Shown here: piece after piece, positions 16,250-60,442 of the stretch | How the letters are laid out: each line of letters opens with the position of its first letter | Position numbering within the stretch: position 1 is the stretch's first letter | NCBI GenBank assembly: GCA_026874595.1 | Contig: CM049308.1 | Span: 25,012,367 to 25,076,366, forward strand | Source: Sipunculus nudus | Taxonomy: Eukaryota > Annelida > Sipuncula > Golfingiida > Sipunculidae | Length of the DNA: 64,000 bases | Direction of reading: 5' to 3' | Translations under genes and position numbers: made by a program | Notes under the pieces: model-generated | Databases searched by the model: none | Seen by the model: the letters and a program-made list of their open reading frames with translations, nothing else | What the model was told of the DNA's origin: nothing

Positions 16250-16407
16250 ACACACACACACACACGCACACACACATACATTTTTATATATGTATATATA
16301 TATATATGCAGGTTTATCATTTAATATATCATCAGACCATTTTCTTGATATATATGTATATGTATGCATTAATATATATATATTTATTATATATATATAT
16401 ATATATA
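16250..16407. repeat. CA and TA dinucleotide tracts, unit 1
   Basis: A CACACA run passes into interrupted TATATG/TATA tracts. The same arrangement recurs at 25110-25267 in unit 2 with no length change. Confidence 0.9.
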
Positions 16408-17225
16408 TCCAAAAAAATGGATAATTTGCAAGAAAGTAAAAACAAAATAAAAAAATACTACATCTTACAAAATATCGCATTCTTTTTATATATTTCATAC
16501 ATAAAACAGCACATATTTGGTCTTTAAGTCCATCTTGTAAATTCTTAGTCATTTCTGCTTATGTGTAGCAAACAGAAGCAAATACTATACCATTGGGTCA
16601 CATCTAAAGGATAAACAGTCAGGTCTGGCCCTGATGCCAAAGATTGGCTGGAAAATGTGACCAGCACGTGACTCAGATTGTATGCGCGGTTACAAGGTTA
16701 TCTGCTACACTTAAAGTTAGATGTAGGCTTCTTGGATCAAACTGGAGCACAGGGTCACAACATTTTTAACATTAATCAATTTCGTTATGTCAAACAGCGT
16801 TAGATAAAAACTACCATAAACTACCAGGTATGCATTTTATTCCAAAATAAATTTAGGGGACTAAAAAGTACGTTGTCTCCACTCCTGAAAAAAGTGAGGG
16901 GGACATATCTTCTCGTCTCCTCTGAAACAAGGGTCATGGCTATGTAATCATATATTTAGTAATTAATATTGATATCATATCAGATGAAAATAGCATGAGA
17001 ATAAAGTGATATACAGTATATAACCTTATTACATTGATTAATAATCATAAATCCTAACCAAAACAGTCTACTTCTGAAACTGTGTTGATAAAAATCAGTC
17101 AGAATTTTCTATTATAAGACTGTCTTATATATATACCTACAGTAAAATCATATGGAACGGAGATATTTTTATTACATGTATTATAATTATTATTTTGATG
17201 GTGATGATTATGATAACATTATGGA

Positions 17226-32180: not shown

Positions 32181-32692
32181 TATTGATATAAACAAAAAAA
32201 GCAGCCTGTGTGTGGTGATATCCACATTTTCTGGTCTATTTTTATGAAAGCTCCAAGGGATTTCCTTTAGTTTATAGAGGTCAGATATGTGATTGGGCCC
32301 CTTTAACGCTGCGGGTATACTCCATATAGTTTATAGTTCTGTCACCAGATAGCGTCCCGTATCAGAATCGGTTCCTGAATCGATCTGCCCAAATTGAAGA
32401 TATCCTGTCGTGTTGTCATGAGTCACGGCGAAAACAAACATGTTCTCGCTGGTCCAGTCCACGTTGTTCTCGCTGCCGTGTATTTACAAAAATCACTGAT
32501 GAATTTCCTGGCCCTTTAAAACATACTGTCAATTCTCTCTACGATAGCAACTGTACATAGATCTTTCGTGCGTTCGAACAGTGGCATAATCTGGGTACGT
32601 ACTATATGGACAAAAAACATGATGGGATCGATTTTCACCAGTGCAATATCAAATGACCGTAAAATACCTTGACTGACATTACACTTAAGAAC
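32181..32692. other. 5' flank of ARF-like copy D
   Basis: No gene seen. It immediately precedes the plus-strand exon 1 of copy D, so any surviving promoter would lie here, but I do not recognise the TGACTCA block found upstream of A, B and C. Confidence 0.35.
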
Positions 32693-33793
32693 ATGGGTGC
32701 GCTGTTTACGAAACTAAATGAAGTTTTACAGAGTTTCTCCCCACGTGACCCCCTCAGTTTTGCTCTGTTGGAACTTGATGGAGCAGGTTAGTATACCTAA
32801 AACCCAGGTACATTTGATATGTGAGGCACTCAAGTTATGTACATTTGTAATATTAAGATTTTGTGGCTATATTAAGTCAGTAAAATTCTCGAAACATTTC
32901 TGATAAATTTAGTATGGTCACGTTTTATCTTTGAACATTTTTTAGTTTAACAATATCCGTGACAACATGAGTATCGATTTAAAAAGCGTTTATACTTGCA
33001 GTTATTCTCATGTAATTAAGCATAATTTTTGGTTAATTTAAAGATCCACTCTTTAATATATTAACATATCACTGTTTTTTTAATCTCCATAATATTATAT
33101 TAACGTTAATTAGGAAAATGTTCATTTTACCAAGGGGTATGTTTTGTATGGGTTTCTGTATTTTGATATAGCCCCTGTAAAGTATTATATGCTGCCACCT
33201 ATCGGCAGGGGATTGAATAAAAACTAGAGGAGTGGCGTTCTGGCTGCGGCACACATGTAAGAATAAAAGGTTTAATTATTCATAACTAGAGTTGGACTGG
33301 GTATTGATAATGTCCCTGACCCTGCAAAATGCATCAATGATAGCCGTAATGTAGAGTTGTAATGCAAGCACATGTATATGATGAAAGATAACACAGTGCC
33401 CTACACTCTAATTATCATTTCAGTCAATTATCAAGTGAACCCTGTCATTTGTTGTTACATGCATTCCCGTTACTCAATCCTGCCGTCTACCTTAAAGCAA
33501 GGTCTCTAACTCGGTTGCCCAGAGACAGTGCTTCAGTGGGTCTCCTGGGATGGTAAATGATGAATTTTTAAACAGTCAATCATGTAATGAGGTCGATATT
33601 ATAATGGCGGTCAATCAGATCCATCGTTACAACAGTAAAACAAAACTGCTCACATACCTTATCAACAATAACACATATGCAATCAAAATATCTAAACATG
33701 CGTACAAGCATTAATAATATAATATGCCTGGTCAGATTGTCCATAACGTCTTCTATGATGGGTGATCTAAAAAAATAGAGCCCCTCGCCGCGT

Positions 33794-34033
33794 ACACTCT
33801 AAGAAAAAAAAGGTTTTAATATAGAATCATCAAGGGTTCTTTAGATTGGAGGCAGTTGGGAACCCTTAGAGGTTCCAGCTATAACCTTCTAGTCAGGGTT
33901 CTTCATGAAACCCTCTGGGGGTTCTTTGGGCACCCTAATGGTTCTGTATATATAACCCTGACAATGGGTGCTTTCAAGAACCATACAGAAGGGTTCTTCT
34001 TGGAACTATTTGTTCATGAAAGGGTCTTTAGTG

Positions 34034-34036
<3 letters not shown>
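33794..34036. repeat. GGTTCTT/AAGAACC-rich element in copy D intron 1
   Basis: About 240 bp starting at CACTCTAAG and ending at TTTAGTGGTG, with at least eight GGTTCTT- or GGTTCC-type motifs on one or the other strand. Probably a short non-autonomous element or degenerate minisatellite; a TA microsatellite (34036-34078) abuts its right side. Confidence 0.5.

Positions 34037-34078
<42 letters not shown>
34036..34078. repeat. (TA)n microsatellite
   Basis: Pure TA run directly after the GGTTCTT-rich element. Confidence 0.95.
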
Positions 34079-34081
<3 letters not shown>

Positions 34082-34870
34082 GTTTGATTTTAGATTGAAT
34101 TCCATTCATTTGAATTCGTATAAATTTACGAACTATTTCTCCGGGTATGTTTTATGAATAATAAAAAATAAAAAAAATATGGTTATTTTTAACAGTTGAT
34201 ATATTCATATTAAATTTTTCCTATTCATCCGTTTAATAGAGGTCCGATCTTGCGCATGCACAACAACTTCGAAACAACGAGAAGTAACATGAAAGAAGGA
34301 ACACAGTAAAAACACCGGTTTGAAGAGTGAAACTCCTTTTTTTTACCCGGTGGGGTGCCCGCTATGGTTACATTTCGTGTCACTGCTCGCACCCGGTACA
34401 AGCTTATTTCTACTTGAATACATAAACAAACACTATAATTCATGTATATTTAACACTCTTGGTATGTGTATAGGTACTTTTAACAATACAGTTTGATTAT
34501 TTGAAACGAGAGAGCAAAGATGGTCAGCAGAAAAACAATCAATATTTATTGTTATTATTACTTTCACAGGAAAGACCACTGCTTTATACAGAATCAAACT
34601 GAACAAGACCGTAGACACCATACCAACAATAGGTACCAACGTGGAGACCGTGACCCTGTGCCCGGGTGTGTGTCATTTACCTTGTGGGAAATCGGCGATA
34701 AGGAAAAGCATCGTCCCTTGTATGTACATCATTTTGCGGGTATGCATGGAGTGATATTTGTGGCTGACAGCGCAGACCGTGACCGTTTGGCGATTTGCAT
34801 CCTGCCTTGGAGTCAGAATACTTAAGGAACGTGCCTGTTGTGGTTATTGCTAATAAGCAAGAGTTGCCAC

Positions 34871-36599: not shown

Positions 36600-39035
36600 T
36601 TATTGACTGTCCCCCGACTCCTTGATTAAGCGAGACAAGGCCATCAATGACTCGATCAGACCGTCCCCGCTGGTGGCGCTGGTTCCCTCAACGTGCCACC
36701 TGTGCCCGCTCAGCTTCCAGAGTTCGAGCATCTCTGCTATCTCGGCGGGTTTTAGTGCATCTATGAGACACAAGAAATCTTGTCACAATGTGAAACAGAA
36801 GTTTATCAGAAAGAAGAGGTTGACATATTGCAAAAATCAAAAAGTCTCATTGTTTTGATCCAAGATATAAAGCCAAACGCAAATTTTTATTTTTTCGCGG
36901 ATTAATTTTTTTATTAATGTGCACAGTAGTAATATTGCGATTTTGGATTTAAAATGGCACAGATATAAGAGAACATTGAGTAAATTTTGTGTTGCTTACA
37001 AACATTTTAATCAGTTGATGCTTATTTTTTTACATTCTTCAGACATTTTGCAAATTTATGTATTTTATTCTCGACCGGCAAATATTTCAGGAAAAGTGTA
37101 TAACAATCAATTTCTTGCTGTGGCCTTTATATATGCTTTATAAATGTAATTGGGGTGGGTTTGTCTAATAAAACTTGTTGGTGTACATATGTTAGCATAC
37201 GCAAATATTCTATAGAGATATAATAGTTTAGGCCTATTCTACTTTACGGTTCTAATGACCACCAAACTCTCCTATAGTGGATAGTTTCACACCTTGAGTT
37301 TGCCCCGGGGTACTTTCTTATCGTATTTCTGTGCCCGTATCAAACGCTGATCTCGCAAAAATTTCGAAACCGCTCATGGGGGCTGTCATTTTTGCGCACA
37401 CACTAAAACCTGGATGGCACAGATCGCATTTCGAAATTATCTGGGCTTTAGTGTGTACACAAAAGTGTAACCGCAATGAAGAGGTTTCGGTATTTTACGA
37501 GTTCAGAGTTAATAAGGTCACGGAAATACAAAAAGAAAGTAATCTGAGGAGATTCTGAAAGTGGGCATCTGCGGAGATAGACCAGTATTTTACATGCAGA
37601 AGCCGAAGAAACGCTGTGCGTTGACCGCGCCCTCATTCTCAAATTAAAGTGGGATAAACAAGCATCTTGTATATATATGGGATATCTATGTATGCTTGCC
37701 TTGTCCAACATACGTGATGTATTTCCTTTTGCTTGAATGTACCCCAAATCCACTTGTATGACAGCTAGCTGTTGTGCAAGTCAACTTGCATGCATATTCC
37801 GAAATAAGCAATACGGTTTTGTTCTGATTGGCAGAGTAACTCCACCCGAATGGTTGTCCTGGCAACATCTTCATAGCTTTCCGGGAGACCTATGGTAAAT
37901 CATATTCGCTGTGCAAGAGCCTTCGCCTCGCGATGCCATGTATGACCCACGCCTATTGCCTTACGTGATTCTGGGTTATGATGATTAATCGCAATTGGTA
38001 TTAAGGTATGATTTAAAATATGTTCACTCACTTGGTAAATCTTGTTTATTAGCCATCACAGCCACCGGAACTTTCTCCTGACGTTCTGACTTCAAGAGAC
38101 CGTGCAACAGATCACGTGACTCAGCCAAACGGTCACGGTCAGTGCTGTCAACCATAAACAGCACGCCGCTCGATTGTGTAAGATAATGCACATACAAGGG
38201 ACGCAGCTTTTCTCTATCGCCGAAGTCCCACACAGTAAAGGTCACGCCGGGGAACGGGGTCACGGTCTCCACGTTAAACCCGAACGTTGGTATGGTGATC
38301 ACTGTCTCGTCCAGTTTGATCCTGTATAATGCAGTGGTCTTTCCTTGCAAATTGATGAAACAGAATAAGAAAATGCAGAATTTTGGCTCTTGTGCTTATT
38401 CATTCTTATTTATTCCTAAGTTTACTCTCATATTATGTAAAAAATGAATATAAAAACGATTAAAAAATCATCCATGCTGTTTCTTTTCTCATCCAAAGTA
38501 TCGATACATGCAGCGACGTCTGACGATACCGGTACGATATATGACTTGTATGTATCGGTGCACCGTTGAATCGGTAAAGCCCTAGTAAATGGAGAAACTC
38601 AGGCTGTGTTTTCGAAGGGGACCCGCGGGTTCTTATGTTTCTTACCAGAGGGAGCCACTAAATATTCAACAAACCAGCGAAACCGGTTACTTCAATACCA
38701 CGTTCGCGACTGTCACAGATAATATATAATTTGCTACAGATCATGAATAGAACCAACTAAATACACGAATAGACCTATATATATATAAGGATATAAGGGT
38801 GCGTCATTTGAATTTTTCATTCATGATCAGGTCATAGATAACAACATTACGAAAACATTTTACTATTGTTAAAGTTTGAATTTGTATATCGAAACGCGCA
38901 CACACACACATTATTCCTCAGGGCAGAATGTAGCTACATACCCGCAGCATCAAGTCCCAACATTAGAATCCTCACAGGTTCTCGTGCGGTGAAGCTCTGT
39001 AAAACTCCGTATAGTTTCGTAAAAAGACCACCCAT
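36600..39035 (-). CDS. ARF-like small GTPase, intact, with Asp-Arg in place of Gly-Gln in G3 (gene A)
   Basis: Three exons on the minus strand: 39035-38942 (94 nt), 38343-38032 (312 nt) and 36760-36600 (161 nt). Both introns are phase 1 with GT-AG ends. They join into 188 codons, close to the 180-184 usual for ARFs. Gly2 with Thr6 fits an N-myristoylation signal, followed by an amphipathic N-terminal helix. G1 is GLDAAGKTT (27-35), the switch-I Thr lies in TIPT (48-51), and the Phe-Trp-Tyr interswitch triad is F54, W70, Y85. G4 is NKQD (130-133) and G5 TSATSGD (162-168). G3 is WDFGDREK (70-77): D74 and R75 replace ARF1 Gly70 and Gln71. Family knowledge says Gln71 positions the catalytic water, so GTP hydrolysis is expected to be weak. 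Membrane-linked signalling or trafficking is inferred. The 5' flank carries a block shared with B and C. Confidence 0.88.
37500..37645. repeat. Interspersed repeat fragment in gene A intron 2
   Basis: Resembles about 1740-1905 (shared gcggaga and GACCGCGCCCTCA). A nearby hairpin at about 37395-37465 pairs CACACTAAA with TTTAGTGTG. Class unknown. Confidence 0.4.
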
Positions 39036-39235
39036 GATAACGTCGCAGTGTTACTGGTTAATATTAAATAATAACCTTGAACTAACATATAAAATGATGT
39101 TTGCGACCAGACAGTTCTACATAATGGTTCTCATACAAAAAAATCCGAGATGTCCCAATTAAACGGACGTAACTACTCATGGTGAAGTGTTGAGTACCTC
39201 GCAGTTATAAAGAAGTCGGCCTTGAGCGGTGATTT

Positions 39236-39400
39236 GTATTAGTATACGGCAGCGAGACCCAAGTTGGGAAAACCAGAGGGGACATGTTTGTTTTCCACGT
39301 GACTCATGACAACGCGGGCTGATACACAGGAATCCGCTTACGGCACTCGCACTGATATCGCACTCCATCTGACGACAGGACTACGTACTACTGACGCTTG
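39236..39400 (-). promoter_or_regulatory. Conserved 5' block of gene A with AP-1-like TGACTCA
   Basis: Homologous to blocks upstream of B (about 44460-44615) and C (about 50275-50410). The best-kept core is GTGACTCATGACAAC; TGACTCA is at 39300-39306, 265 bp upstream of the ATG, and here overlaps a CACGTG. AP-1/ATF or small-Maf-type binding is inferred from the consensus only. Confidence 0.45.
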
Positions 39401-39561
39401 TGAAAATATCGACATAGTTAAATCAGCCCAATCACCTACTGGCTTATATATATTACAAACAAAACGTAATCACCTGGGTTTTTTTTTTAATCGGTCAGAA
39501 AACGTGGATATCTCCGCACACAGGCTGCTTGTATAGTTTATATAAACATTTTTATTTTATA

Positions 39562-39893
39562 TGGGGGCCCGCCAAAATAATCAAAACAAATAAAAAAGGC
39601 ATATTGCGGCAAGTCAGAGAAGCCAGAGCTTTGCAAATGGTGTCTTGCAACAAGTGACCTTTCTACCTCCACATATATGCAACCTACAACCTATGGTTAC
39701 ATGATTTTACCGTTTGTCAGCATTGCTGTGTATACAAACACGTTGTTGATAATCATGATCATACATCCTGAACGGAGGCGTTGTAAGAACTTTTCATAAC
39801 CGGAATTACCCTTGGATCATTGATATACACAGAGGAAGCCAGAAATCGCATAAAATCTTTTTTCAAAAGGTAGAAGAATGTGCACCTTTAAGA
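39562..39893 (-). repeat. Interspersed repeat, family S copy 2
   Basis: Reverse-orientation copy of 31835-32180, lying between the promoter block of gene A and the B region. Confidence 0.75.
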
Positions 39894-40118
39894 GACGAAG
39901 AAAGCAATATCATTCAATGAACAATTAGCAATTCCCGTGAATCAGGTAGGTCCCAATGTGCCACGGTCCAGTCTTGCGTCCTCCATATTTGGACAAACGA
40001 GTATTCTGATTACAACCATTTGAAAACGATGACAAGAATGTTTTTTTTTGTATACTGTGTTCTCCTGATTGGTGGATAATTTATCACTTAGTGATAATTA
40101 TGAAAAGCATATTTCTGT

Positions 40119-40336
40119 TTAGTGTGTGAAATTGTAATAACAGTAAGTATGAGTATTCCTAAAATATTTTAAAATGTATACTTCACGACCTTCCAGGTAC
40201 TTCTTGATTACCCGACTAGGCAAGATGGCGTCTTTCAGCTGACGGTTTATACTTTTTCCAACTTGTACGGTACTAGACATAACTTCCATCAAATCAACAT
40301 CGGTCAAAATATATCCTTCACTCTGTCCCTTCAGCC
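40119..40336 (-). other. Possible orphan exon, 62+ codons
   Basis: On the minus strand an acceptor-like TTTTATCAG is followed by an open frame with good amino-acid complexity (…GQSEGYILTDVDLM…). It runs about 60 codons to a possible GTATAC donor. The GQSEG...TDVDLM pattern faintly recalls the active-site region of Mab-21 nucleotidyltransferases, but the spacing does not match and nothing else supports it. No neighbouring exons were found. Confidence 0.18.
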
Positions 40337-40575
40337 AAACAATCCTGATAAAATAGACGATGTATCCAATATCATATCATTTTTTGCGCCTTATGGCGTT
40401 GGTTAAATTCTAAATGCGCGCCTCCTGCACCCGTTTCAAGATTAGCCCACGCTGTAGCCCCTGCTACACCAAGATTATATTGGCAGCCGATCTTTATACT
40501 GTAGTCGTCTCGGCACTTTTGTCTTTGAAATATTCTTAAAATGTGATCGCTGTGTTATTAATAATTATTAATACT

Positions 40576-40578
<3 letters not shown>

Positions 40579-40635
<57 letters not shown>
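40579..40635. repeat. (AT)n microsatellite
   Basis: Pure AT run. It forms the edge of a block (40636-40960) that is homologous to 46160-46510. Confidence 0.95.
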
Positions 40636-40638
<3 letters not shown>

Positions 40639-40960
40639 GAATCATATTCTGTATACAACTGACAGAAATGTATTTCATAAACGCAGTTAACAACTACATG
40701 AACAATAGTGTAAACGTCTAACGAAAGTAGGTCAAAACGAATACTCGACCTGATTTCGGACTCTGATACCCGATTAAAATTACGGCAACATTTTTCCGGA
40801 ATAAAAAAAAATGATATGTGCTGTAGATTTAAGTGTTTCCATTTGACGTCATACCTGGGCCAGGAAATTACGTCAGGGTATACACTATTTTTCTTTGTGC
40901 AACCCTCCCGTAACATTACACCAGAGAACTTGCAATGCGTTGACCTAATCACCTGAAATT
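40636..40960. repeat. Segmental-duplication block, copy 1
   Basis: Alignable with 46160-46510: both start GTGGAATCA(T/C)ATTCTGTATACAA, share CTAACGAAAGTAGG, and end near a GTTGACCT(A/G)ATC stretch. It marks the duplication that produced the B/C part of the ARF-like cluster. Confidence 0.75.
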
Positions 40961-41345
40961 CGTACGTTAAAAAAATAGAAATTAAACGTTTTATGGATTT
41001 TTAACACGAGCATACTCACTGCGTTTAGTGTTCGTCTGCCGTGTTCATGTCCAATGAACCAGTTTTGTTGGTTTGTCCTATGTAATTAAATACAAGCATG
41101 CGGTTCCGTCAACAGCCTAGCTGTTAAAGATAAGTATGATTTAACATTTAAAACATGTCGAATTATGATCTCTCCTGTCAATATAAATCCTTAAAGTGAA
41201 TCCTCGCCAGCAGGTGGCGCAAATGAGCTGGGAAGGGTCTACTGATTGTCCTTGGATTTTTTTAAGCAAACGAGACATGGCCGTCAGGGACCCGATCAGA
41301 CCGTCCCCGATCGTGTCGCTGCATGGTTCCCTCAACGTGCCATCT

Positions 41346-42083
41346 TTGCTGCAGTCTTGCAGCGCTGACATATATAGTAAACAATACAAGCGCTGCAGCC
41401 TCTGGCGGGGAGAGTCTATACTATCTAAGTTTGTACGGATCCGGACAGACCCTCAGACACGTATATGCCTTGTGAAGCGTGGGGACACCAAACAAACCCC
41501 ACATATTATAATTGTTACAGATGCTTAGACTCCGTTGGGACCAAAACTTTTGCTGGATGATCAGCATTAATAAAGTATGGGCACTTACTCTGGATGAAGT
41601 CAGATATTGCATCGTCTCCGTCTGGCCGATGGCGCTTTCCGGTTGGAACAACCAATAGGAATTTAGCATCATTGACAACAAGCGATGTATGATGGGAAGG
41701 ATGCTTATTAAAATATGGTCTATCCTAGTGCACGGCACTGGCATTCCTGGGAAAAGCCCCCCTGAATTCATCTTTTGCATAGATTGCCCACCTAATTTGC
41801 ATGGGATTCCTTTTCCGGCGGTGTCTAGTTGGCATGCAACATCTGAACCCCGGCAGTTCAAAGGATAAAAAAACATTTACAGGCGCACATAAAGGTGATA
41901 TATCGATTTAATTTGATACATAAAAAGTTTATTTCTATATATAAATACAAGATTGTTTCTCTATCGCACAACAAGCAGTGGTAATTCATGTTACAGGTCC
42001 TTCAGTGAACGGCAGGGTGAACTCTCACCGCCAGACGGTCGGACTCCGTATCACAGATAAATGGAGTCCGTACGTGGCGGACT
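41346..42083. mobile_element. 738-bp insertion in exon 3 of copy B, 11-bp target duplication
   Basis: The sequence ACGTGCCATCT occurs at both edges (41335-41345 and 42084-42094) but once in genes A and C at this site, so it is a target-site duplication. There are no clear terminal inverted repeats; a near-end CTCTGGCGGGGAGAGT (about 41400) has a diverged inverted partner near 42020-42035. A hairpin of GGACTCC and GGAGTCC lies near the right end. Long frames inside (for example 41421-41876) match nothing I know. An 11-bp duplication would suit a Mutator-like element or a retroposon; I cannot decide. Confidence 0.7.
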
Positions 42084-43032
42084 ACGTGCCATCTGTGCCT
42101 ACTTAACTTCCAAAGTCCGAACATCTCTGCTATGTCAGCGGGTTTTGCCGCACCTGTGAGACATCAGAAATATTTGATGAACAAAAACGATAGAACAGCT
42201 TAACAAAATACAAATTTTAATTTTTTCATTGTAATTGTCGGATAATTTAATAGTTCATAGATTTTGTACATATCTAATGTCTGAAAAATAAAAAAAGGGG
42301 GAAAACGGAGCGTGGCACAAATTCGGGCGCTTTTTTTTCGGCATTAAGTTCGGATGGTTTTTATTTTTCGTCTGTACGGGTCGATAGGGCGATGGGAGGG
42401 ATAACCACTCCAACCTAAATCCGTCCCTGTAATATACAATACCGTGATAGAAAAATGTTTCCTGTGTGTCCCATACTGGGCATCGTATCTGCTTTAACAG
42501 TGATTTAATTAAGCAGATGTTTTTCTAAGATTTCACGTTAAAGGGCTAAAAAAATCAAATGGTTAATGGCATTTGCCCGAAAAAAAATACTGATATATAT
42601 GGTTACTCACATATGGCGTCTCGTTTATTAGCCATCACAACCACCGGGACGTTCTTCAGGTTTTCTGACCGCATGAGACCGTGCAGCAGATCACGTGACT
42701 CAGCCAAACGGTCACGGTCAGCGCTGTCTACCACAAATACCAAACCACTCGAAGAATCAAAATAATGCACATACGAGGGACGCAGCATTTCTCTGTCGCC
42801 GACATCCACCACGTTAAAGGTCACGCCGGGGCACGGGGTCACGGTCTCAATGTTAACACCGAACGTAGGTATGGTGGTCACTGTCTCGTTCAGTTTGATT
42901 CTGTATAATGCAAAAGGTCAAGAACTAGTAAGAAACAGGAGATTTGTGATAACTTTCTAACTAAAAACAAGTCTGGCCTTTGATAGGTCTGGTCCTTCTC
43001 TTAATAAATAATCGGTCGAATTTCGCTCCCGC

Positions 43033-43075
43033 TCATCGATGGGTATATGGTCTAGTCACTGCGTGGTATCAGAGA

Positions 43076-43125
<50 letters not shown>

Positions 43126-43237
43126 ATCCAAGAAGTAAAGGGGTTCTTGGCTCAACAGACTGCCTGGCACAGGTAAATATGTCTGCAGGGTGGTTCATCG
43201 ATGGGTTTATGGTCTAGTCACTGCGTGGTATCAGAGA

Positions 43238-43305
<68 letters not shown>

Positions 43306-43380
43306 ATCAGAATCCAAGAAGTAAAGGGGTTCTTGGCTCAACAGACTGCCTGGCACAGGTAAATATGTCTGCAGGGTGGT
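43033..43380. repeat. Tandem 162/186-bp duplication with AT cores, copy B intron 1
   Basis: Two adjacent units (43033-43194 and 43195-43380) begin TCATCGATGGG and end GCAGGGTGGT. Each contains an AT tract of different length. A single related unit is in intron 1 of gene C (about 48780-48890), so the duplication happened in B only. Confidence 0.9.
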
Positions 43381-43927
43381 TATATTGTATATTTTATGTT
43401 TTTTTATAATGTTCTTTCATTTAGACGCCGGGAAGAAAACTATACGAGACGCAGAATTCAGCGCTGCTTTTCGGTATTTTAATAAAATATTCCATCTCAC
43501 AGATATTTTGATGGGGCGCGCCCCTTCTCCATCTACCCTATAGCCCGAATTTTTCGGACTCAGTATTATTGGAAGGGTCTAATATATTGAGTCCTATTAA
43601 ATCGTGCTACATCTACCCCTGCTACATCAAGATTATATTGGCAGCCAATCTTTATACAACAGTCGTTTTGATACATGACTATGCTATTTTCTTCCGATAT
43701 GCTCGTTCAGAGTTACTAATTTGAATGAAGATGATACTGTAAGAACCTGCAAAAAAATTCTTGTCAGAATATTATTACCTTGTGGCTTTATGTTTTAATA
43801 AGGCCATGAGGATAAGGAACTTGGATGGGGAGGGGGTTCAAGGAGCGCGTGAGATATATTTAAGTACTTTACCATTCGAGAAAAACATATGGAATTTCGC
43901 TTCCCTGCAAAATGGAATACAAAGAGG

Positions 43928-44056
43928 TGAATGAATGAATGAATGAATGTATGAATGAATGAATGAATGAATGAATGAATGAATGAATGAATGAATGAAT
44001 GAATGAATGAATGAATGACTGAAAGAATGACTGAATGAAGGAATGAATGAAATATT
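43928..44056. repeat. (GAAT)n microsatellite, copy B intron 1
   Basis: About 130 bp of near-pure GAAT. In reverse it reads as Phe-Ile-His-Ser repeats in every frame, which are not proteins. It sits at the position matching the much larger array in gene C intron 1. Confidence 0.95.
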
Positions 44057-44454
44057 GTGCACAGTTGATTTTTCACGAAAAAAATTAGATAATACATTAC
44101 ATTTCGCGAAACAGCCAAACATATTTAGGAGTTTTGCATATAAATTCCTCAAGATATAAAGCCCTTACCCGCTCCATCAAGTCCCAACATAAAAATTCTC
44201 CCAGGTTCCCGTGCGGTTACGTTCTGTAAATCTCCGTATAGTTTCGTAAAAACACCACCCATGACGTAATATGTCACCACGTAATGTCAAACATTTGCCA
44301 AAATAAAATGGCCCTCATTTAATGTTGGGAACCAGCCTCTCATACTCAGAGGCTGCATGGTCAGTGTAGTGTATAATAAACGAACGGAAGTACACATTGT
44401 ATAATATAGAGAACGGCGCTATAATAAAAGCACCGTGGATTCAGCTGAGATTTG

Positions 44455-44615
44455 TATATGAACACGGTATCGAGACCCACGTGGACAAAACCAGCGAGGA
44501 TATTTGTTTGTTTACTCCGTGACTCATGACAACGCGGCGCTCCATTTGAAACAGGAATCCGTTAATGGTACTCTCGCTGGTACGCCATCTAGTGCCAGGA
44601 CTAAGTACCATTGAT
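44455..44615 (-). promoter_or_regulatory. Conserved 5' block of copy B with TGACTCA
   Basis: Same block as upstream of A and C; TGACTCA at 44520-44526, 258 bp before the ATG. It also has CACGTG about 40 bp further upstream and a CTCF-like CACTAGATGGCG (minus strand, near 44583). The flank survives although the gene is broken. Confidence 0.45.
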
Positions 44616-45171
44616 GTCAGACATGGGTAAAGTGTTCATTATTTAAATGACTCGGCAGATGAAAAAATAACTTCATGTTACCCGTTAATAAGCTACGGTT
44701 TGGTCTTGCGCCATATATTTTGGGCAAGCGAGTACCCGAGTAACAAACATTTATATATGAAATAAAGGGAGATAATTTTTCATTTTAGAAAGTCTGTTAC
44801 ATAAAGCGGCGCCTATCTTTTTTACGACAATTATGAAGGCTTAATGACTCACCAATATGAGCATTCCAGCAGTAAGGGATATTATATACCTGGGCACGAA
44901 CTTATCAACTGTATACAAGGGATAGCCCTGCCTGGGCTTTAATATTTACGTTTGTTACTAAAATAAAACCTGATTCCAAGTACTGATAGACGTAACTCAG
45001 TGCCAACTCTTTTCACTTAATGAAAAGTCAGCTAGAGAGCGATTTTTTTTTTTTTTTCCGCGAGGGGGTAGTACGTGTTCTATGCGTTGCAACAAAGCAA
45101 GAGTAAGTTTGGTGACTCTGACGGTGGCAGTTATTATGTTTTAACAATTGCATCGACTGGGCCAGTCTACA

Positions 45172-45445
45172 CCAGGGATCGTAATACTTTTCCAACGGAG
45201 AAACATTAATACAGGTTTGTCTTCCCCAGAAAAACAATTCCTTCCCGCTACCATCATATCTAACTTTCACAGTTTCAGTCTCACTTCTCTCAGTGTAAAC
45301 CCCATTCTGCCACCCTACATGCCATCCTACATAAACACTTGAATGCAGAAAGCACTGAATGTTTTCAATAGTAAAACTCTTATATCAGGAACATGATTGT
45401 GCAGTGAAATAAACAAGAAAATAAAGGAGATGAAGGCCTACATGA
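45172..45445 (-). repeat. Family R copy 3
   Basis: Reverse-orientation copy of the repeat at 29225-29491 and 36150-36433, beginning CAGGGATCGTAATAC. Confidence 0.75.
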
Positions 45446-46159
45446 CATTTTTTACAGGAAAATATAGGACATTTTATATTTGATTTCTATACCTGTGTTT
45501 ATATATATATATATACATGTAACAGTCACATCGTTATATTTATACATTTCTGATGCTACGCGGACTCTCCTATGCCTCTGTGCAATGTTTAAAACTCTAT
45601 CTCCTATGACTAATTAATTGTAGTAGCGGCTCCTTGAAATTATACTTATTATACTATCTCTGCTCAATAAGGCTTTATACACAAAAAATAATTTCACCAA
45701 AGAGATTAGGTATACTACCGTATTTCTTTGATCAGATCCCCGGGCGTTTATTTCTTTCGGCCTTGATCGCAAATGACAGATCGGGAATATTTGCTGCCCA
45801 TTCCATATAGGTCTGAGGCGTGTGACATTTGAAAGATAAATTGGTGAATTAAAATAGAGCAACAAAGTTAAAAAAAAAACAGATTTATATAACTCATATT
45901 CAATTGACTCGCAAATCCACGCGTTTTAGTAACAGACATGAATATAAGCAGAGACACCAGGCAGCAATTAAGGGAACTTTTCTGGTAACCGGACTTTGAA
46001 TCGATTCCCGCGTTGATAGTGCGCAAATGTAGGAACTATTGGTCTCATATTCAGTATTAGTATCACCCGACTCGGAACCGAGTATTCGTTAGAATGGTGA
46101 CACTTTCCATGGGGTCATTAAAAAATATTCATCAAATATTTTTAATATACAAATAAACA
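45446..46159. other. Spacer, no gene seen
   Basis: AT-rich DNA with a short TA run near 45500. Nothing recognised. Confidence 0.4.
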
Positions 46160-46510
46160 TATATTATATATTTATAGTGGAATCACATTCTGTATACAAT
46201 GGACAAAAAAAAGTTTCATTCACTTCGTTGACAACTGCAGGAACAATTGTTTAAACTTCTAACGAAAGTAGGCAACACGATCGAGTACTCGCCTAGTTTT
46301 CGGACTCGAATACACGATTAAAGGTACTCACCATTTTACAGGAATGAATAAGAACAATGTGAATATAAATTGAAGTATTTCAATATTTCGTTATGACGAC
46401 AGGTACCTGCAACACCCAGTCACGACAGGATATCGATGCAGTCTTAATATTTCTTTGTGCAGTCCTTTCGTAACATGACACTAGAGCACGTGTAATACGT
46501 TGACCTGATC
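46160..46510. repeat. Segmental-duplication block, copy 2
   Basis: Partner of 40636-40960, more diverged in the middle. It places a duplication breakpoint between copies B and C. Confidence 0.7.
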
Positions 46511-46549
46511 CTTGGGATTTTGTAGGTTTAACAAAACACGTATAAAAAC

Positions 46550-46870
46550 CTTTCTGTGGCTCAGGGGGAGAGCACAGGATTCAAAGCCGGGAGGTCGTGA
46601 GTTCGAATCTAAGCCGAGGCGGTGAGATTTTTCACGGTCGGTCCCCACTCTTGGTGAGCGCTCTGCAGGCACAATGGGGAGACTGCCCAACAGTCATGTT
46701 TCACTCACAAACAAGTGCGCCTTTCGAGGGTTCCTCGGTGTTATGGAATGACACATACCAAGGACCCGCAGGTGAGGTACACCGAACCTGGTTGACACCA
46801 GGATAACCAGGTATAAGCTCCTGTCATGTAGTCCGAAACCGATATGGAACTCTGCAGATGTATATATAAA
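46550..46870 (+). mobile_element. tRNA-derived SINE candidate
   Basis: The first ~75 bp have a pol III A-box-like TGGCTCAGGGGGAGAGC and a B-box-like GAGTTCGAATC at tRNA spacing. The T stem and acceptor stem do not pair well, so it is not a functional tRNA. The next ~240 bp contain no frame and pass into a TATATATAAAT tail. This is the build of a tRNA-headed SINE; the family is not identified. Confidence 0.5.
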
Positions 46871-47659
46871 TAGTTAAGCAAGCATTTAAAAAAAAACACG
46901 TGTGAAAGACCTTTTCATGAGCAAGTTCACTGCTAGTTTCAGCTCCCGTGCTCTCTCCCTACGCTTCGCTGCTCTCCGCTGTGAGAGAACCCTAGTAAAA
47001 GGTGTTTGAAAACTGGAGATGTACCAGTGGACAATAAAACTATATTATTCTGACTTAGAAAAGTGTCAGATTTAAGAATACAAATACATTTTTTTATCAT
47101 ATGGAAGCATACCATACCACTTGAACAACGTTATGCCCCTTAAACACTCGAATCGGGCAGGTCTTTATCTGAAGGAGTAACACAAACATGTCTGGAGGGG
47201 AGTTTCCTGGGTTTCTCCACGTAAAGCGTCATACCCGTTATCAACCTCCAAGGCAGGGTCATGATCTGTTGTGTTATCCTTGAAATTCCTAGCAAGTTTT
47301 TTATATGGAAAATGATGCGTCGTACGCGCCATCTGGGGATTGTCCCAACTCTGATTAGAAACAACTGTCAGGCTTTTTAAGTGAAATTGGTTTAGGCATT
47401 AAAGCAGGAACTTCAGTGAACATTCTTATTCACTCGAATACATTAATATTATCTGCCCCCAAATGCATACAAGTTCCCCTGTCATACACACAATATTTGA
47501 TTTTATGCGATCTTTGTCCGATACAGGATTTACTTTCTCGCGTTTTCTTGAAGCTTTTTATATATAGAGAATCCATGGAACTGGATACCTACGCCGCATA
47601 ATTGCAGTCAAAGCATATATAGGGCTTCGCCATAAGATTCGCCGCTATGATGGGGTAGA
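46871..47659. other. Spacer downstream of gene C
   Basis: No gene supported; only short AT-rich frames. Confidence 0.4.
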
Positions 47660-47665
47660 TTTATT
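47660..47665 (-). terminator. AATAAA signal of ARF-like gene C
   Basis: Minus-strand AATAAA about 112 nt after the TAG stop at 47777. Between them lies a CTCF-like CCGACAGGTGGCGC (about 47744-47757), kept in copy B as CCAGCAGGTGGCGC (about 41208-41221). Confidence 0.5.
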
Positions 47666-47776
47666 ACGTTTAACATCTGAAACATGATGAAATAGGATCT
47701 TTCCTGTCCATACAATGGACCTGAACCTTCAGTGTCCATCCTCGCCGACAGGTGGCGCAAATGAGCTGGGAGAGGT

Positions 47777-50049
47777 CTACTGATTGTCCTGGGATTCATT
47801 GATCAAACGAGACATGGCCGTCAGGGACTCGATCAGACCGTCCCCGCTGGTGGCGCTGGTTCCCTCAATGTGCCATCTGTGCCCGCTCAGCTTCCAGAGG
47901 CCGAACATCTCTGCTATCTCCGCGGGTTTTGCTGCACCTGTGAGACACCACAAACATTTGTTGAACTCTCGATTCTGCTTTATGAAAGAACACCTTAACA
48001 TAATTTAAATCTTGAATTTCTATTGTAGAGGTCGGATAATTTATTAGTTTATGAATTTTATACAAAACTATCGTCTGCAAAATTAAAACAGGAAAATAAA
48101 CGGCACGAAACACAAATTCGGGCGCTTTTATTGGTATTCAGCTGGGATAATTTACTTTTCTTGTGTATTGTGTTCGAAAGGGGTTGGGAGGGGTAGCTAC
48201 CCCCACCTTAATCCGAGATATTTATGTGATAAAAAGTTATTTGTATGTCCTAAACAAGGCACCGTCTCTGCTTTAACAGCGGCTTAATTTTTTTTATTTT
48301 GTTATCAGATTTCACGTTAAAGGGTAATAATTCCCAATTTGTTTATGACAGTTGTTGTAAAAGAGACTGACATATTTGGTTACTCACATGGGGCGTCTTG
48401 TTTATTAGCCATCACAACCACGGGGACGTTCTTCAGGCCCTGTGACTGCAAGAGACCGTGCAACAGATCACGTGACTCCGCCAAACCGTCACGGTCAGCG
48501 CTGTCCACGACAAATATCAAACCACTCGAACCTTCAAAATAATGCACATACAAGGGACGCAGCTTTTCTCTATCGCCGATGTCCCACACAGTAAAGGTCA
48601 CGCCGGGGCACGGGGTCAAGGTCTCCACGTTAAACCCGATCGTTGGAATAGTGGTCACTGTTTCGTTCAGTTTGATTCTGTATAATGCAGTTGTCTTTCC
48701 TGTAAGATGGCAAAAAAGGTAAGAAAATACAGGTTTTATGATGACTTTCTAACTAAAAACAAGCTCGGGGCCCTCGATATATCTGGCTTATGCATGGTTG
48801 TGTTAAGTATCAGAGACAGATAAAGAATCCTAGAAATAAAGGGGACGAGCTCAACAACCTCCCTGGCACAGGTAAACATGTCGGCCAGCACTGTCAGTAC
48901 AGTATATACGTATAGGTCTCATGTGGAGACGTAGGGAAGAAAACGATGAAAGCAGCTTTGGCGCTTAATGTTTCCCGTACTTGATTATATTATTCTATTT
49001 CACAGATATTTTGACTCGCCCCCCCCCCTGCGCCCCTCTAAATCCGCCCATGCTACATAAAGTTCATATTGGCGGCCGATCTTTTATACTGCAGTCGTTC
49101 TGACAGATGGCTATGACATTTTCTTCCGATTTGATGGTTAAAAACCTGTGAAAAAATTCTTGTTAGAACATAATCAACTTGTGATTGTACATGTTAAATT
49201 AAGGCTATGGGGATACGGAATGGGAATGTGTGTGTGTGGGGGGGGGGGGAGGGGGGTCCAAGTTAAGGAGCGCGTGGGAAATTTTTCAAATACTGTATCA
49301 TTCGAGACAATATATGCGGAATTTTGCTTCTTTGCGAGTAATGTAAAAAAACAAAAAATGCATGCTTTTATCATTTAAATGAATACTAATGAATGCATGA
49401 ATGCATGAATGATTGAATGAATGAATGAATGAATGAATGATTGAATGATTGAATGCATTGAATGCATTGAATGCATTGAATGCATTAATGAATGCATGAA
49501 TGCATGAATGCATGAATGCATGAACGAATGCATGAACGAATGCATGGACGAATGCATGAGTGATTGAATGAACGAATGAATGAATGAATGAACAAAATAA
49601 TGGACGAATGAATGAATGAATGAACGAATAAATGAATGATTGATTGAATGATTGAACGAATGATTGAATGAATGAACGAACGAACGAATAGATGAATGAA
49701 TGGATGGATGAATGAATGAATGAATGAATGAATGAACAAATGAACAAATGAATGAATGAATTAACGAACGAACGAATGAATGAATAAATGAAAGAATTAA
49801 TGAACAGATGAATGAATGAGTGAATGAGTGAATGAATGAATGAATATCGTGCTTAGTTTTTCAGGGAAATCATTAGATAATGTATTACACAATTACATTT
49901 CGCGAAACTGCCAATCATATCTTGTGGTTTTTAATATAAATTGTAATGCACTTACCCGCTCCATCAAGTCCCATCATAAGAATTCTTGCAGGTTTACGTG
50001 TAGTGAACGTCTGTAAAACTCCATATAGTTTCGTAAAAACACCACCCAT
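47777..50049 (-). CDS. ARF-like small GTPase, intact, with Asp-Arg in place of Gly-Gln in G3 (gene C)
   Basis: Exons 50049-49956 (94 nt), 48699-48388 (312 nt) and 47937-47777 (161 nt) on the minus strand, both introns phase 1. They join to 188 codons, exactly as in gene [11 protein letters not shown] gives a myristoylatable Gly2. G1 is GLDGAGKTT, switch I keeps TIPT, and the Phe-Trp-Tyr triad is kept. G4 is NKQD, G5 TSATSGD. G3 reads WDIGDREK, with the Arg codon at 48571-48569, so it has the same loss of the catalytic Gln as A. It differs from A mainly in the N-terminal helix, the segment after switch II and the loop after NKQD. Intron 1 holds a 470-bp GAAT-type array. B is the closest relative by intron and UTR similarity. 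Membrane-bound, slow-hydrolysing or GTP-locked behaviour is inferred, not shown. Confidence 0.9.
49379..49846. repeat. GAAT/GAATGCAT compound microsatellite, gene C intron 1
   Basis: About 470 bp of GAAT with GATT, GAAC and GCAT variants, including a block with period 9 (TGAATGCAT). It occupies the same intronic place as the 130-bp array of copy B. Reverse-strand frames of Phe-Ile-His-Ser and Ala-Phe-Met-His are artefacts. Confidence 0.95.
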
Positions 50050-50274
50050 GACGTAACTTTCACCACTCAATGTCAGATAAATAGATAAATCAAAAGAAAT
50101 GATCCTATATTAATCTTGGAAACCTGCCTGACCTGAGTGACTATACATGCCTATTTCTCACACAGAGAACCTGAACAGCAGTGTATATTAAACGAACGGA
50201 AATCCATATAGTGTTATGTGGAAAACGGCGCTATAATAAGAGTGACGGGGACTGAACAACGATTCTTATCAAAA

Positions 50275-50410
50275 ACACGGTAGCGAAATCCACGTGGACC
50301 AAACCAGCGGGGACATGTTTGTTTCCCCGTGACTCATGACAACACAGCGGGAATCCGTTTATGGTACTTGCTCTGATACGCCATCTAGTGACAGAATTAC
50401 GTACCACTGG
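50275..50410 (-). promoter_or_regulatory. Conserved 5' block of gene C with TGACTCA
   Basis: TGACTCA at 50330-50336, 281 bp before the ATG. An upstream CACGTG and a CTCF-like CACTAGATGGCG (minus strand, near 50378-50390) are shared with B. A TTACGTCATGG sequence overlaps the start codon in B and C and resembles a CRE/ATF half-palindrome. Confidence 0.45.
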
Positions 50411-55040: not shown

Positions 55041-55785
55041 AATTTTGACACCCTACTTCCCACAAAATTAGCATTTTGATTTTCAGAAGAAATTTACTGA
55101 TTTTGAGCCCCAGCCGTTTGGACATTTCTTTCGAGAAAATAACAAAATATTTTAAATTCTTTTATCATCATGTTGTCCCGTATTTATTTTAATTAAAAAA
55201 AAAGAATTAAAAGATATAACAATCGCCGATCCGCAGTGATTTCTTTAAAAAAATGTCTGAGAATGTCTGGAAAGTAATTAAAAATTATCAATCGACCAAT
55301 TTTTTCTTGATTTTACGTTGTTTGCATTGTAATGTAATGTTTGACAACATGTGTCCATCTCGGTAATTTACTTGTACATTATTGACGCTCGTACACGTAG
55401 GCTTTGTCAACTATGTATGAAAGATTCCCTTTTTATCCCTTTTTTAATGCTTGTGTCGCTGTCCTATGTTAATAAGTGAAGTAGTAAACAATAAATAATA
55501 AAATTAATAATCAAATTATAAACAAAATGGTCAGTTGTTTTCTATTAATATTAAACAGATTGCTTGGTCTGATGTGGAACAATGTTTACTCCTAAAATTA
55601 ATATGACTACCAGAAAGAAAAGCATACATTCATATATGTTATATATTTCATTTTCCATGTTTTTTTTCGTAGAAAACTCAATTATTAACTATATGGTTAC
55701 ATCTATATTGTTCGATTACTTTTGGTTTACAGGACTAACCTCTCATATGTGAATATGAATATGAATATAATATTTTGTTCAACAG
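55041..55785. other. 5' flank or intron of the Mab-21 gene
   Basis: AT-rich with no gene. It ends in a good acceptor, TTTTGTTCAACAG, at 55784, so it is probably the intron after a non-coding first exon that I cannot place. Confidence 0.4.
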
Positions 55786-55797
55786 GAATTCATCATA

Positions 55798-57957
55798 ATG
55801 GCTTTGAAGGTTGACCCATTGAGTGCGACACCTGAGGCTTTATTATCGGTCGCTGTGCGGTTTTTCTTTCCTGATACCGAAGACCACCCAGAAAAGAAAC
55901 TGCTGAGCCCTTGTCTCATTACCCTAGAAGAGGACCAATTAAAAACTCCATATTACGTCACAGGGAGTTTAAGCGAAGACCTGAATGTTCCTTATCTGAT
56001 CAACAAAGCGACCTTGCAACACTTAAGTGACACTGACGTAGATATGATGGACAGAATTCATTTGCCAGGTAACCCTACCCTTGAAACCAGCGGTACCCAT
56101 AAGTCTTTGCGGCCGGGGTACTGTTATATCAGGTGCAATGAACTTCCTCCAATACAAAGTCCACTCAGGCGCCATCTTATAAAGAAAGACAACAAATTTT
56201 ATATGAGCAAGACTTTTGTCTATCATCATTGTGGAAATATTTACGAACACAAGATGTGGAAGGCACCAGAAACAATTATCATAAATGAAGATGAAATCCA
56301 ACGTCTTAAAGTCGAAAAAGGAAAGGAATTCACAAGCCCAGCGATCACGTTCGGAGCGAGATCTCGCGATATGGATGTTGTTCCTGCATTTTCATTCTCA
56401 TGGCCCGATGCTGCGAGCGCCTGGAAATCAAGAAAGAGAAAATCAGGCTGGCCAAGCAGGAAGACCGTAAACGAAGCTGTCAAAACAGGATGTCACGTGG
56501 TGAGCAAATCACATCCGTTAAGTCCGATGTCAAATATCGAATGGCGTTTCTCTTTCTCATTCGCTGAAAAAGCACTTGCACAAACGCTGACGCCATTACA
56601 AAAGCTTTGTTATAAAGTATCCAAAGCTTTGGTGAAACGTCATACGAATACATCTACGTCAGACATTCCGAGTTATTTCCTGAAGACAACATTATTCTGG
56701 GTTTGTGAAGACATCCCACAATCTGTATGGAAGACGCCAACTCTCGGTTCCATGTTGCTGCACATATTTGATCAGCTGATCCGTTTTCTGGCAAATCACA
56801 ATCTTCCGAACTACTTTCTTCCGCAAGCAAATCTCATAGACCATGTACCACGTGATGTGCTTCAGCAGTGGCTTAAATGCCTTGGAGTGATTCGACGTAA
56901 CCCTCTGAGAGCTATGGTGCAGTTTCACGCTGTGTATACCTCCAATCATCCTACAGGGACCCTCCCAAATAACATCTTAAACGCAATGGAGATGTTGCGA
57001 CAGACCGCCGACCAACAGAGTTCAATGCATCAAAAATTGTCGACCGCTCTGAGGACCCTGGCTGTGTACTACGGCGTTGACGGCAGACACAACATGGTCT
57101 TATCTATAGGCAAAGTGTTTTTTAATCTTTTCTCAGATCAGCAAACCATCAGACTCCAAGAACAAGACAAACTCAGTATCACAGCAGAACTTCTAATCCT
57201 CAGAAAACTGTATTCGCAATTAATCGACTTGGTTAATCTTGACGACATTTATACATTGCGCCCCTATGTCTCGGATGTGTTTACAGTGATGAACAAAGAT
57301 ATGATGTTGTCATACCTTCACGCTGAGCTAGCATGTCTCCATTACCAGACAGCGTGCCTGCGTGGTATTCCAGAACCGGCAAAACTTGAGCACACTGCAA
57401 AAGCGAAAAACTTTTTCAATAAAGCAACAAGGAGTCCCCATACTCCCTCTTGTGTGAAAGTTAAACATGCACAATATCTGCTACAGACCTCGGAGTACGA
57501 TTCAGCATTGCCCTTACTGATGGAAGTAATCGGTGAAAAGGAACTGCCTCTGGACTACCGTCTATATACAACAGTGTCTTACACAAGATTCACAGTTTTT
57601 GCAATGGAAAAAATTCTCTCACCTGACGTTATTGGACAAGCGGAAGTCAATTACAAGACGCATGCGCTCGCGTATTATCTCTTAAACATATGTGCTCAGG
57701 AAACTCGCAGGAAAATCAGTGTACCAAAAGTGTCCGAGTTCAGTGGAGATTGTACTGATGTGGTACAAATGGCGATCAATGACGCGGAGTTTTTGTACTT
57801 TGAGGGGTGTTGGTTGCTACGCTCTGCTTGCTGGTTTCCTGCCTTCTGGGTCTTTCTTCAAGCCTTCAGACGCGCAGATTGCAAATCATACGACAAGATG
57901 TGGTATTGTGTAGCCAAATTATACTGGTTTTTGAAAGTAATGCATGACGTATGGTGA
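55798..57957 (+). CDS. Mab-21 domain / cGAS-like receptor (cGLR) family protein, 719 aa
   Basis: A single long coding exon, GC-richer than its flanks; an acceptor 13 nt before the ATG implies a spliced 5' UTR. The N-terminal nucleotidyltransferase lobe has GS at residues 56-57 (TGSLSEDL) and DVD at 80-82 (SDTDVDMM). The third acid, D193, is in DMDVVPAF. These correspond to the metal-binding residues of cGAS-like enzymes. The helical Mab-21 lobe includes IEWRFSFSFAEKAL (247-260) and LTPLQKLCYKVSKALVKRH (264-282). Residues about 390-719 are a further, mostly helical region, longer than in MAB21L proteins (about 360 aa) but common in mollusc Mab-21 expansions. There is no cGAS-type zinc thumb that I can see. 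The family includes nucleic-acid sensors making cyclic dinucleotides and inactive developmental members; intact residues allow, but do not prove, catalysis. Confidence 0.88.
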   Translation: MALKVDPLSATPEALLSVAVRFFFPDTEDHPEKKLLSPCLITLEEDQLKTPYYVTGSLSEDLNVPYLINKATLQHLSDTDVDMMDRIHLPGNPTLETSGTHKSLRPGYCYIRCNELPPIQSPLRRHLIKKDNKFYMSKTFVYHHCGNIYEHKMWKAPETIIINEDEIQRLKVEKGKEFTSPAITFGARSRDMDVVPAFSFSWPDAASAWKSRKRKSGWPSRKTVNEAVKTGCHVVSKSHPLSPMSNIEWRFSFSFAEKALAQTLTPLQKLCYKVSKALVKRHTNTSTSDIPSYFLKTTLFWVCEDIPQSVWKTPTLGSMLLHIFDQLIRFLANHNLPNYFLPQANLIDHVPRDVLQQWLKCLGVIRRNPLRAMVQFHAVYTSNHPTGTLPNNILNAMEMLRQTADQQSSMHQKLSTALRTLAVYYGVDGRHNMVLSIGKVFFNLFSDQQTIRLQEQDKLSITAELLILRKLYSQLIDLVNLDDIYTLRPYVSDVFTVMNKDMMLSYLHAELACLHYQTACLRGIPEPAKLEHTAKAKNFFNKATRSPHTPSCVKVKHAQYLLQTSEYDSALPLLMEVIGEKELPLDYRLYTTVSYTRFTVFAMEKILSPDVIGQAEVNYKTHALAYYLLNICAQETRRKISVPKVSEFSGDCTDVVQMAINDAEFLYFEGCWLLRSACWFPAFWVFLQAFRRADCKSYDKMWYCVAKLYWFLKVMHDVW

Positions 57958-60240: not shown

Positions 60241-60442
60241 CACAGCTGTCCACGACAAACAGAAGGCCTTACGCCTTTCCGTAGTAGTGCTGCCAGAATA
60301 CGACGTTTTTCCTGACCTCCGATGTCCCACATAGTTTAGGTCACGCCGGGGCACGTTGTCACGGTCTCAACGTTAAACCCGATCGTTGGTCTGGTGGTCA
60401 CGTTCTCGTTCAGTTTGATTTTATACAATAATGTGGTCTTTC
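60241..60442 (-). pseudogene. ARF-like GTPase copy E, exon 2 remnant with canonical Gly-Gly-Gln
   Basis: A CACAG acceptor is followed at 60442 by [13 protein letters not shown], the start of ARF exon 2. An in-frame TAA (60338-60336) interrupts GVT-TMW. The G3 box then reads WDIGGQEK, with the Gln codon at 60314-60312, the ordinary ARF form, unlike copies A to D. A 1-nt shift follows; in the shifted frame WQHYYGKA, another stop, and GLLFVVDSC can be read, then homology ends. I found no exon 1 or 3 nearby. Its WQHYY sequence after switch II is also nearer to typical ARFs (WRHYF) than the YVHYF of A and C. Confidence 0.85.

Follow-up and report, generated by a model that had tools for sequence, protein, structure and literature searches.

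The glycine of the DxxG motif belongs to the most constant switch residues of the Ras superfamily; it touches the gamma phosphate and helps to drive switch II. For Ras, the contact of Gly60 with the gamma phosphate and its role in switch II are described in PMC4867591. Within the ARF family, a 2025 review lists ARL10, ARL13A/B, ARL15 and ARL16 as lacking the switch II glutamine and states that many atypical ARF-like proteins should count as pseudoGTPases (PMC12722892), and a family survey reports that various taxa possess divergent, lineage-specific paralogs (PMC8358228). The RGK proteins carry DXWE as their G3 box, and the classical switch is considered not to apply to them (PMC4081519). Here, we analyse a stretch of 64,000 nucleotides from Sipunculus nudus (hereafter the window; contig C3:25012367-25076366), which contains four ARF-type copies, A to D, whose G3 box reads GD(R/K) instead of GGQ. 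Judged from the sequence, what sets the box and its surroundings apart is the loss of two presumably phosphate-facing residues in one clade, of which gene C is retained under selection beside ordinary paralogs.

Results

Two intact ARF-type genes with an altered G3 box

Genes A and C lie on the minus strand and consist of three exons each, with 188 codons plus stop; their two GT-AG introns are in phase 1 and interrupt both genes at identical positions. In the spliced model of A, exon 1 (window 38942-39035) runs from Met1 to the P-loop, exon 2 (38032-38343) runs from the P-loop Lys to NKQDLP and includes the G3 box, and exon 3 (36600-36760) includes the stop codon. The exons of C are found at 49956-50049, 48388-48699 (with the G3 box) and 47777-47937 (with the stop); a long tandem simple repeat, of a Phe-Ile-His-Ser type in translation, occupies positions 49298-49860 in its intron 1. 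The two genes are 79% identical. An origin as single-exon retrocopies is ruled out by the three exons and by introns placed as in the GGQ paralogs of this genome. With Pfam Arf scores of 180 bits for C and 178 bits for A at a curated cut-off of 22.3, both belong to the ARF family by descent; among the Pfam families both score highest with Arf, Ras reaching 33 bits in C, and the closest solved relatives in the PDB are ARF1 and ARF6 (compared for C only). The intact exon 1 of A and C encodes MGG(L/V)FTKLYGVLQ, that is, Gly2 with predicted myristoylation and a hydrophobic N-terminal helix, whose hydrophobic moment is 0.30-0.31 compared with 0.33-0.49 in the GGQ copies F, G, H and I.

The G3 box reads WDFGDREK in A and WDIGDREK in C, encoded in both by GGC GAT AGA (Gly-Asp-Arg, GDR) at 38213-38221 and 48569-48577, respectively, on the minus strand. 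Copy B has GGC GAC AGA (GDR, 42792-42800, minus strand), copy D has GGC GAT AAG (GDK, 34694-34702, plus strand), and the neighbouring pseudogene E has GGA GGT CAG (GGQ, 60312-60320, minus strand). The codons suggest that the change may have proceeded from GGT CAG, as in E to H, via GAT AAG (D) to GAT AGA (A and C). In an alignment with ARF1, we take Asp74 and Arg75 of C to be the equivalents of Gly70 and Gln71. Since the box departs from the canonical WDxGGQ, with GDR in A, B and C and GDK in D, these copies are not classed as canonical ARF GTPases. The P-loop GLDxAGKT, the switch-I Thr51, the interswitch triad Phe54/Trp70/Tyr85, NKQD, SAT and Gly2 are all retained in A and C. An earlier note, made from the window alone, had described A and C as intact 188-codon ARF-type genes with WD(F/I)GDREK and these motifs preserved, with the same change in B and GDK in D; the spliced models, the codons and the aligned columns agree with this description throughout.

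Rarity of the box among relatives

For comparison, 176 relatives were fetched in three protein searches. These reach relatives with shared exact words only, and two of them each cover the best 120 out of 7992 candidates that were scored. In the aligned G3 box, GGQ is found in 169 relatives, GSQ in three, AGQ in two, and GGT and GGK in one each. The glycine position is thus occupied by Gly in 173 and by Ser in three, and Asp or Glu occurs in none of the 176. Likewise, a search of about 5.8 billion proteins with words confined to a 40-residue segment centred on the box matched 13 proteins, none of which has GDREK. The change is common to four copies, which rules out a sequencing slip; together with the lack of an acidic residue at that glycine in the fetched relatives, this also rules out chance. 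A widespread group of this kind is rejected on the same count, and within these word-limited searches no GD(R/K) member was found beyond this genome; given the exact-word reach and the restriction to the best 120 of 7992, a further case among the other candidates is possible. In the open-licence literature (where the box itself was not a search term), we came across neither a GD(R/K) ARF group nor a double change of Gly and Gln in a sequence so near the true ARFs. Within these searches, the assertion that no ARF group with this box had been described stands for the double change, whereas loss of the glutamine as such is known from ARL10/13/15/16 according to the 2025 review (PMC12722892).

In the genome itself (1.43 Gb, 153 contigs), protein C matched at least 41 places among the best candidates. 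A genome-wide check with the Arf model gave 67 matching places, and 23 stretches were examined (L001-L003 and 20 others); no GD box was found among the 12 of these 23 that have a readable G3-like box. One exon on contig C6 (L039), which we take to be ARL13-like, reads YDLGGG, with the glutamine lost and the glycine retained.

The conservation tables were restricted to proteins of 180-200 residues, which dropped 22 of the 176 relatives. In the remaining 154, conservation reaches 90% or more in 72 columns, and A and C jointly depart at seven of them (39, 74, 75, 78, 82, 110 and 120). Four of the seven lie in switch II (residues 72-86), to which nine of the conserved columns belong; the hypergeometric p of 0.004 was computed post hoc, the region having been picked once the data had been seen. 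A set of 115 relatives, from which 18 of 133 had been dropped, gave 71 such columns and the same seven departures. The columns of the G1/P-loop, the switch-I Thr, the G4 NKQD and the G5 SAT are unchanged in A and C, and departures specific to C are found at columns 26, 59, 103, 134 and 182.

Origin within a local ARF array

The four copies belong to an ARF-type array of about 65 kb, which in addition comprises pseudogene E and the intact GGQ copies F, G and H at 25.08-25.11 Mb, at most 35 kb past the window; two further copies, I and J, are located on contig C14. All five of F-J have open frames, splice signals at matching positions and the GGQ box. In a nucleotide tree, A-D form one clade apart from E-J with an ultrafast bootstrap of 100. 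The GD clade thus originated among ordinary ARFs that form a local family. A protein tree with the 154 relatives joins A and C (support 1.0), then F-H (0.89), and then I and J together with a protein of Owenia fusiformis (0.88), which places A and C with the GGQ paralogs of their own genome; the next branches, with weak support, are other worms including the annelids Capitella and Paralvinella. The protein trees contained ARF-type relatives as fetched and no ARL10/13/15/16 reference. Among the best 120 of 7992 candidates, Owenia fusiformis also provides the best named match for F (70%), and a joint search with F, C and J returned no relatives from close species. The molluscan affinity expected previously is not supported; with Owenia and other worms as nearest database proteins and weak support further out, the trees hint at an annelid-like animal.

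Selection on the altered copies

Selection was assessed with our own implementation of the GY94 branch codon model on nine genes (A-D and F-J), with pseudogene codons carrying stops or frameshifts omitted. The nonsynonymous to synonymous rate ratio (dN/dS, omega) was 0.11 in the GGQ genes; among the GD copies it was lowest in C (0.17) and rose through D (0.31, on a branch that includes the time of D as a dead gene) and A (0.48) to B (0.63). For the stem of the GD clade it was 0.13, a rough value since this stem is long and near synonymous saturation. Pairwise, A and C differ by a dN of 0.120 and a dS of 0.306 (Nei-Gojobori). Neutrality (omega=1) is rejected for C, with twice the log-likelihood difference (2dlnL) at 11.33 and p 0.0008, and C shows no detectable difference from the GGQ paralogs (p 0.42). 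It is also rejected for the GD stem (p 0.00008) and for D (p 0.006), and all three reject it again on a second topology. In a null simulation with an omega of 1 for C, none of 26 replicates reached 11.33, the maximum being 4.25. Fits restricted to the window, with E included, gave an omega of 0.18 and 0.22 for C on two topologies (2dlnL 11.35 and 6.51). Selection has clearly kept the altered protein in the case of C, and it also did so on the GD stem and the D branch.

A shared upstream block

All four GD copies have a block of about 86-98 bases some 0.2-0.3 kb before the ATG. The block of D shares 77-83% identity with those of A, B and C, and in the alignment it contains the run GTTGTCATGAGTCACG common to A-D. 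With the element of C (50255-50360, minus strand) as query, a genome search that scores best candidates only and skips very common words returned four matches, one before each of A-D; the others are located at 44461-44539 (B, minus strand, 85% identical to the C element), 39246-39313 (A, minus strand, 84%) and 32410-32494 (D, plus strand, 83%). As this best-candidate search gave four genome places, a dispersed repeat was rejected. Between C and D the upstream element is 83% identical and the coding sequence 76%; between B and C, intron 2 is 71% identical compared with 88% in the coding sequence. The block fits a retained putative promoter, and it also precedes the dead copies B and D. Besides, a short motif, CTGG followed by GTCCACGTGG, is aligned about 0.25 kb upstream of B, C, F, G and H and partly of A and D; it is possibly an older promoter element common to the array copies.

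Pseudogenes and neighbouring features

Pseudogene B (41252-44262, minus strand) was modelled with exon 1 at 44262-44167, exon 2 at 42911-42609 and exon 3 at 42151-42084, resuming near 41345. It is broken at the last P-loop residues, has an altered acceptor, and has its exon 3 interrupted by about 0.74 kb of inserted sequence with an 11-base word repeated at either end. This insert (41345-42084) is flanked on both sides by AGATGGCACGT, as a mobile element might leave; a long exact terminal inverted repeat was looked for in it and not found, and its 151-codon frame has no Pfam match. A simple repeat shorter than that in intron 1 of C is located near 43795-44122 in intron 1 of B. Pseudogene D (32693-34869, plus strand) comprises exon 1 (32693-32788) and exon 2 with frameshifts (34569-34869), and no exon 3 was found within the window. 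Pseudogene E (60230-60443, minus strand) consists of exon 2 only and has an in-frame stop.

Between C and E, within the array, a 728-codon open frame (55771-57957, plus strand) combines the domains Mab-21 nucleotidyltransferase and Mab-21_C, a pair known from cGAS-like receptors. Elsewhere in the window, positions 7921-16807 and a copy 8860 bases downstream represent a recent large tandem duplication with 98.5% agreement at that offset, which results in identical open frames at 8218 and 17078.

Discussion

Our data suggest that at least one of A-D, gene C, represents a retained ARF that would no longer act as an ordinary on/off switch. We tentatively propose a membrane-bound, nucleotide-binding but non-switching ARF pseudoGTPase that works as a brake or a fixed scaffold, with C as the main functional copy and A possibly decaying, a model that we regard as plausible though somewhat short of probable. 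In this model, the phosphate-sensing pair of switch II (Gly70 and Gln71 in ARF1) has been converted to Asp-Lys or Asp-Arg, binding of guanine nucleotides and membrane targeting through Gly2 and the N-terminal helix would be retained, and the gamma phosphate would be unable to draw switch II into its normal active form. Lys77, Arg79, Leu81, His84 and Tyr85, which we take to be the residues facing exchange factors or effectors in ARF1, are kept in C, so that the protein would most likely bind exchange factors or further partners of ARFs with no normal release. Its role could then be that of a natural dominant-negative brake or a fixed scaffold alongside the ordinary GGQ paralogs. The most specific version, in which C evolved naturally into a dominant-negative ARF, a duplicate without the gamma-phosphate sensor that selection keeps to restrain exchange factors or partners opposite its GGQ neighbours, is unlikely in our estimation. 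For the glycine itself, a dominant negative effect of Ras G60A is, going by its title, said to be the subject of Ford et al. 2005. H-Ras mutants such as G60A are described as mostly adopting the inactive state 1, their hydrolysis being drastically impaired (PMC4867591), and an ARF3 double variant, L12V/D67V, with D67 in the G3 box, is reported to cause a Golgi dispersal resembling that of a dominant-negative mutant (PMC9652361).

The earlier note had favoured a GTP-locked ARF with poor hydrolysis, perhaps a constitutive platform for effectors, in the manner of Rnd proteins. This rival, which we consider somewhat unlikely, accounts for the replacement of Gln71 by Arg or Lys in all four copies and for the membrane and interswitch features retained in A and C, and Rnd proteins are described as pseudoGTPases which bind GTP but do not hydrolyse it (PMC5593906). 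However, the glycine at the gamma phosphate is gone as well, Ras G60A is described as mainly inactive (PMC4867591), and an Asp beside the gamma phosphate should be unfavourable. Since the DxxG glycine is lost besides the glutamine, a non-switching pseudoGTPase is likelier than a GTP-locked, Rnd-like protein; by sequence and analogy, we favour a pseudoGTPase that would engage partners but not cycle, with a brake as its most likely role, rather than the GTP-locked platform. Another possibility is that the switch still cycles and catalysis is supplied otherwise, as proposed for the RGK proteins with their retained low activity. For A-D this seems improbable: no replacement catalytic feature was identified in the sequence, where no test was aimed at one, and the RGK G domains differ at many other places. 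In its favour, one classification lists the RGK proteins, whose G3 box has an acidic residue as well, among those that retain catalysis (PMC5593906), an activity given elsewhere as low or absent (PMC9074095).

The box might also have decayed in relaxed, dying duplicates after loss of the ancestral function, A and C being intact merely because they are young. Two of the four GD copies are pseudogenes and the omega of A is compatible with 1, which speaks for this explanation, but C rejects omega=1 and cannot be told apart from the GGQ paralogs, the stem and D reject it too, and the other motifs are intact. Moreover, a simulated neutral gene of 188 codons would stay free of stops, with indels not counted, with a probability of about 0.04-0.06 over the A branch (0.45-0.49) and of 0.09-0.12 over the C branch; the intact frame of A by itself is weak evidence of constraint. 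Taken together, we judge such a decay to be quite unlikely. The earlier claim that selection retained the protein, for which an estimate of dN/dS had been recommended, thus holds for C (omega 0.17, p 0.0008), the GD stem and D, whereas A is compatible with neutrality. Neither a maintenance of A nor a GTP-locked state of the protein is established.

Several observations weigh against the proposed non-switching ARF. An Arg at the position of the glutamine alone would predict slow hydrolysis and a GTP-bound protein, as known from Ras Q61R, and the partner-facing residues are presumed ones, taken from ARF1 complexes. Two of the four GD copies, B and D, are dead, and A has a Phe at an effector-facing Ile (position 52) beside the interswitch Phe. 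Across all fits, A is compatible with neutrality (omega 0.48-0.57, p 0.10-0.49): its 2dlnL against omega=1 is 2.13 and 2.67 in the window-only fits, with omega 0.54 and 0.57, 2.59 in the nine-gene model (p 0.11) and 0.48 on the second topology (p 0.49). The omega of the GGQ genes imposed on A and C together is rejected (p 0.001), B is compatible with 1 (p 0.24), and the rejection for C is weaker on one window-only topology (2dlnL 6.51, p about 0.011). The near saturation of the GD stem (dS from A/C to F-H of about 1.3-1.7), the post hoc p of the switch II enrichment and the relatives dropped by length from the conservation tables belong here too, as do the weakly supported order of splits within A-D (ultrafast bootstraps of 44 and 77) and the loss of an apparent separation from all database proteins: seen in the tree of 115 relatives without the Owenia protein, this idea was dropped when Owenia took its place beside I and J with 154. 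Finally, ARF3 L12V/D67V is only a loose analogue because it is reported to carry a second change and a lowered protein level (PMC9652361).

An ARF that lacks both the DxxG glycine and the catalytic glutamine yet shows no detectable loss of constraint against its ordinary paralogs would serve as a natural experiment for sorting ARF functions by their need for the GTP switch. As the GGQ paralogs share the exon structure and the same 65 kb, A/C and F/G/H represent a ready-made comparison.

Comparison with known systems

With the true ARFs (ARF1 and ARF6) and the ARF1-like animal paralogs that have one extra interswitch residue, A and C share the Pfam family Arf, Gly2, the P-loop, the Phe-Trp-Tyr triad, NKQD and SAT, and their intron positions are those of the GGQ paralogs in their own genome. 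They differ from true ARFs in WDxGD(R/K) instead of WDxGGQ and, beside it, in Trp82 to Tyr and Ile78 to Leu. The presumably ARL13-like exon of the same genome, with its YDLGGG, keeps the glycine, unlike A-D. In the atypical ARLs of the 2025 review (ARL10, ARL13A/B, ARL15 and ARL16), the glutamine at the Gln71 position is absent, as it is in A-D with Arg or Lys (PMC12722892); these ARLs are other branches of the ARF family, a distinction from A-D that is drawn by name only.

Ras G60A and ARF3 L12V/D67V resemble A-D in having a G3 lesion, with an inactive-state or dominant-negative-like outcome according to the respective reports (PMC4867591, PMC9652361); they are mutant alleles from the laboratory or from disease, whereas A and C are genes, and both substitutions and positions differ. 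Rnd/RhoE combine an altered switch II with a loss of hydrolysis, which in A and C is only proposed. They are Rho proteins said to bind GTP permanently (PMC5593906), which is less likely in A-D given the Asp, and by Pfam A and C belong to the Arf and not to the Rho family. A nearer analogue than Rnd are the RGK proteins (Gem, Rad and Rem), for which an acidic residue at the G3 glycine is described (PMC4081519), as found in A-D. RGK proteins are Ras family members with extended termini and calcium-channel partners; A and C, with DxGD instead of DXWE on an Arf and not a Ras core, stand outside this subgroup.

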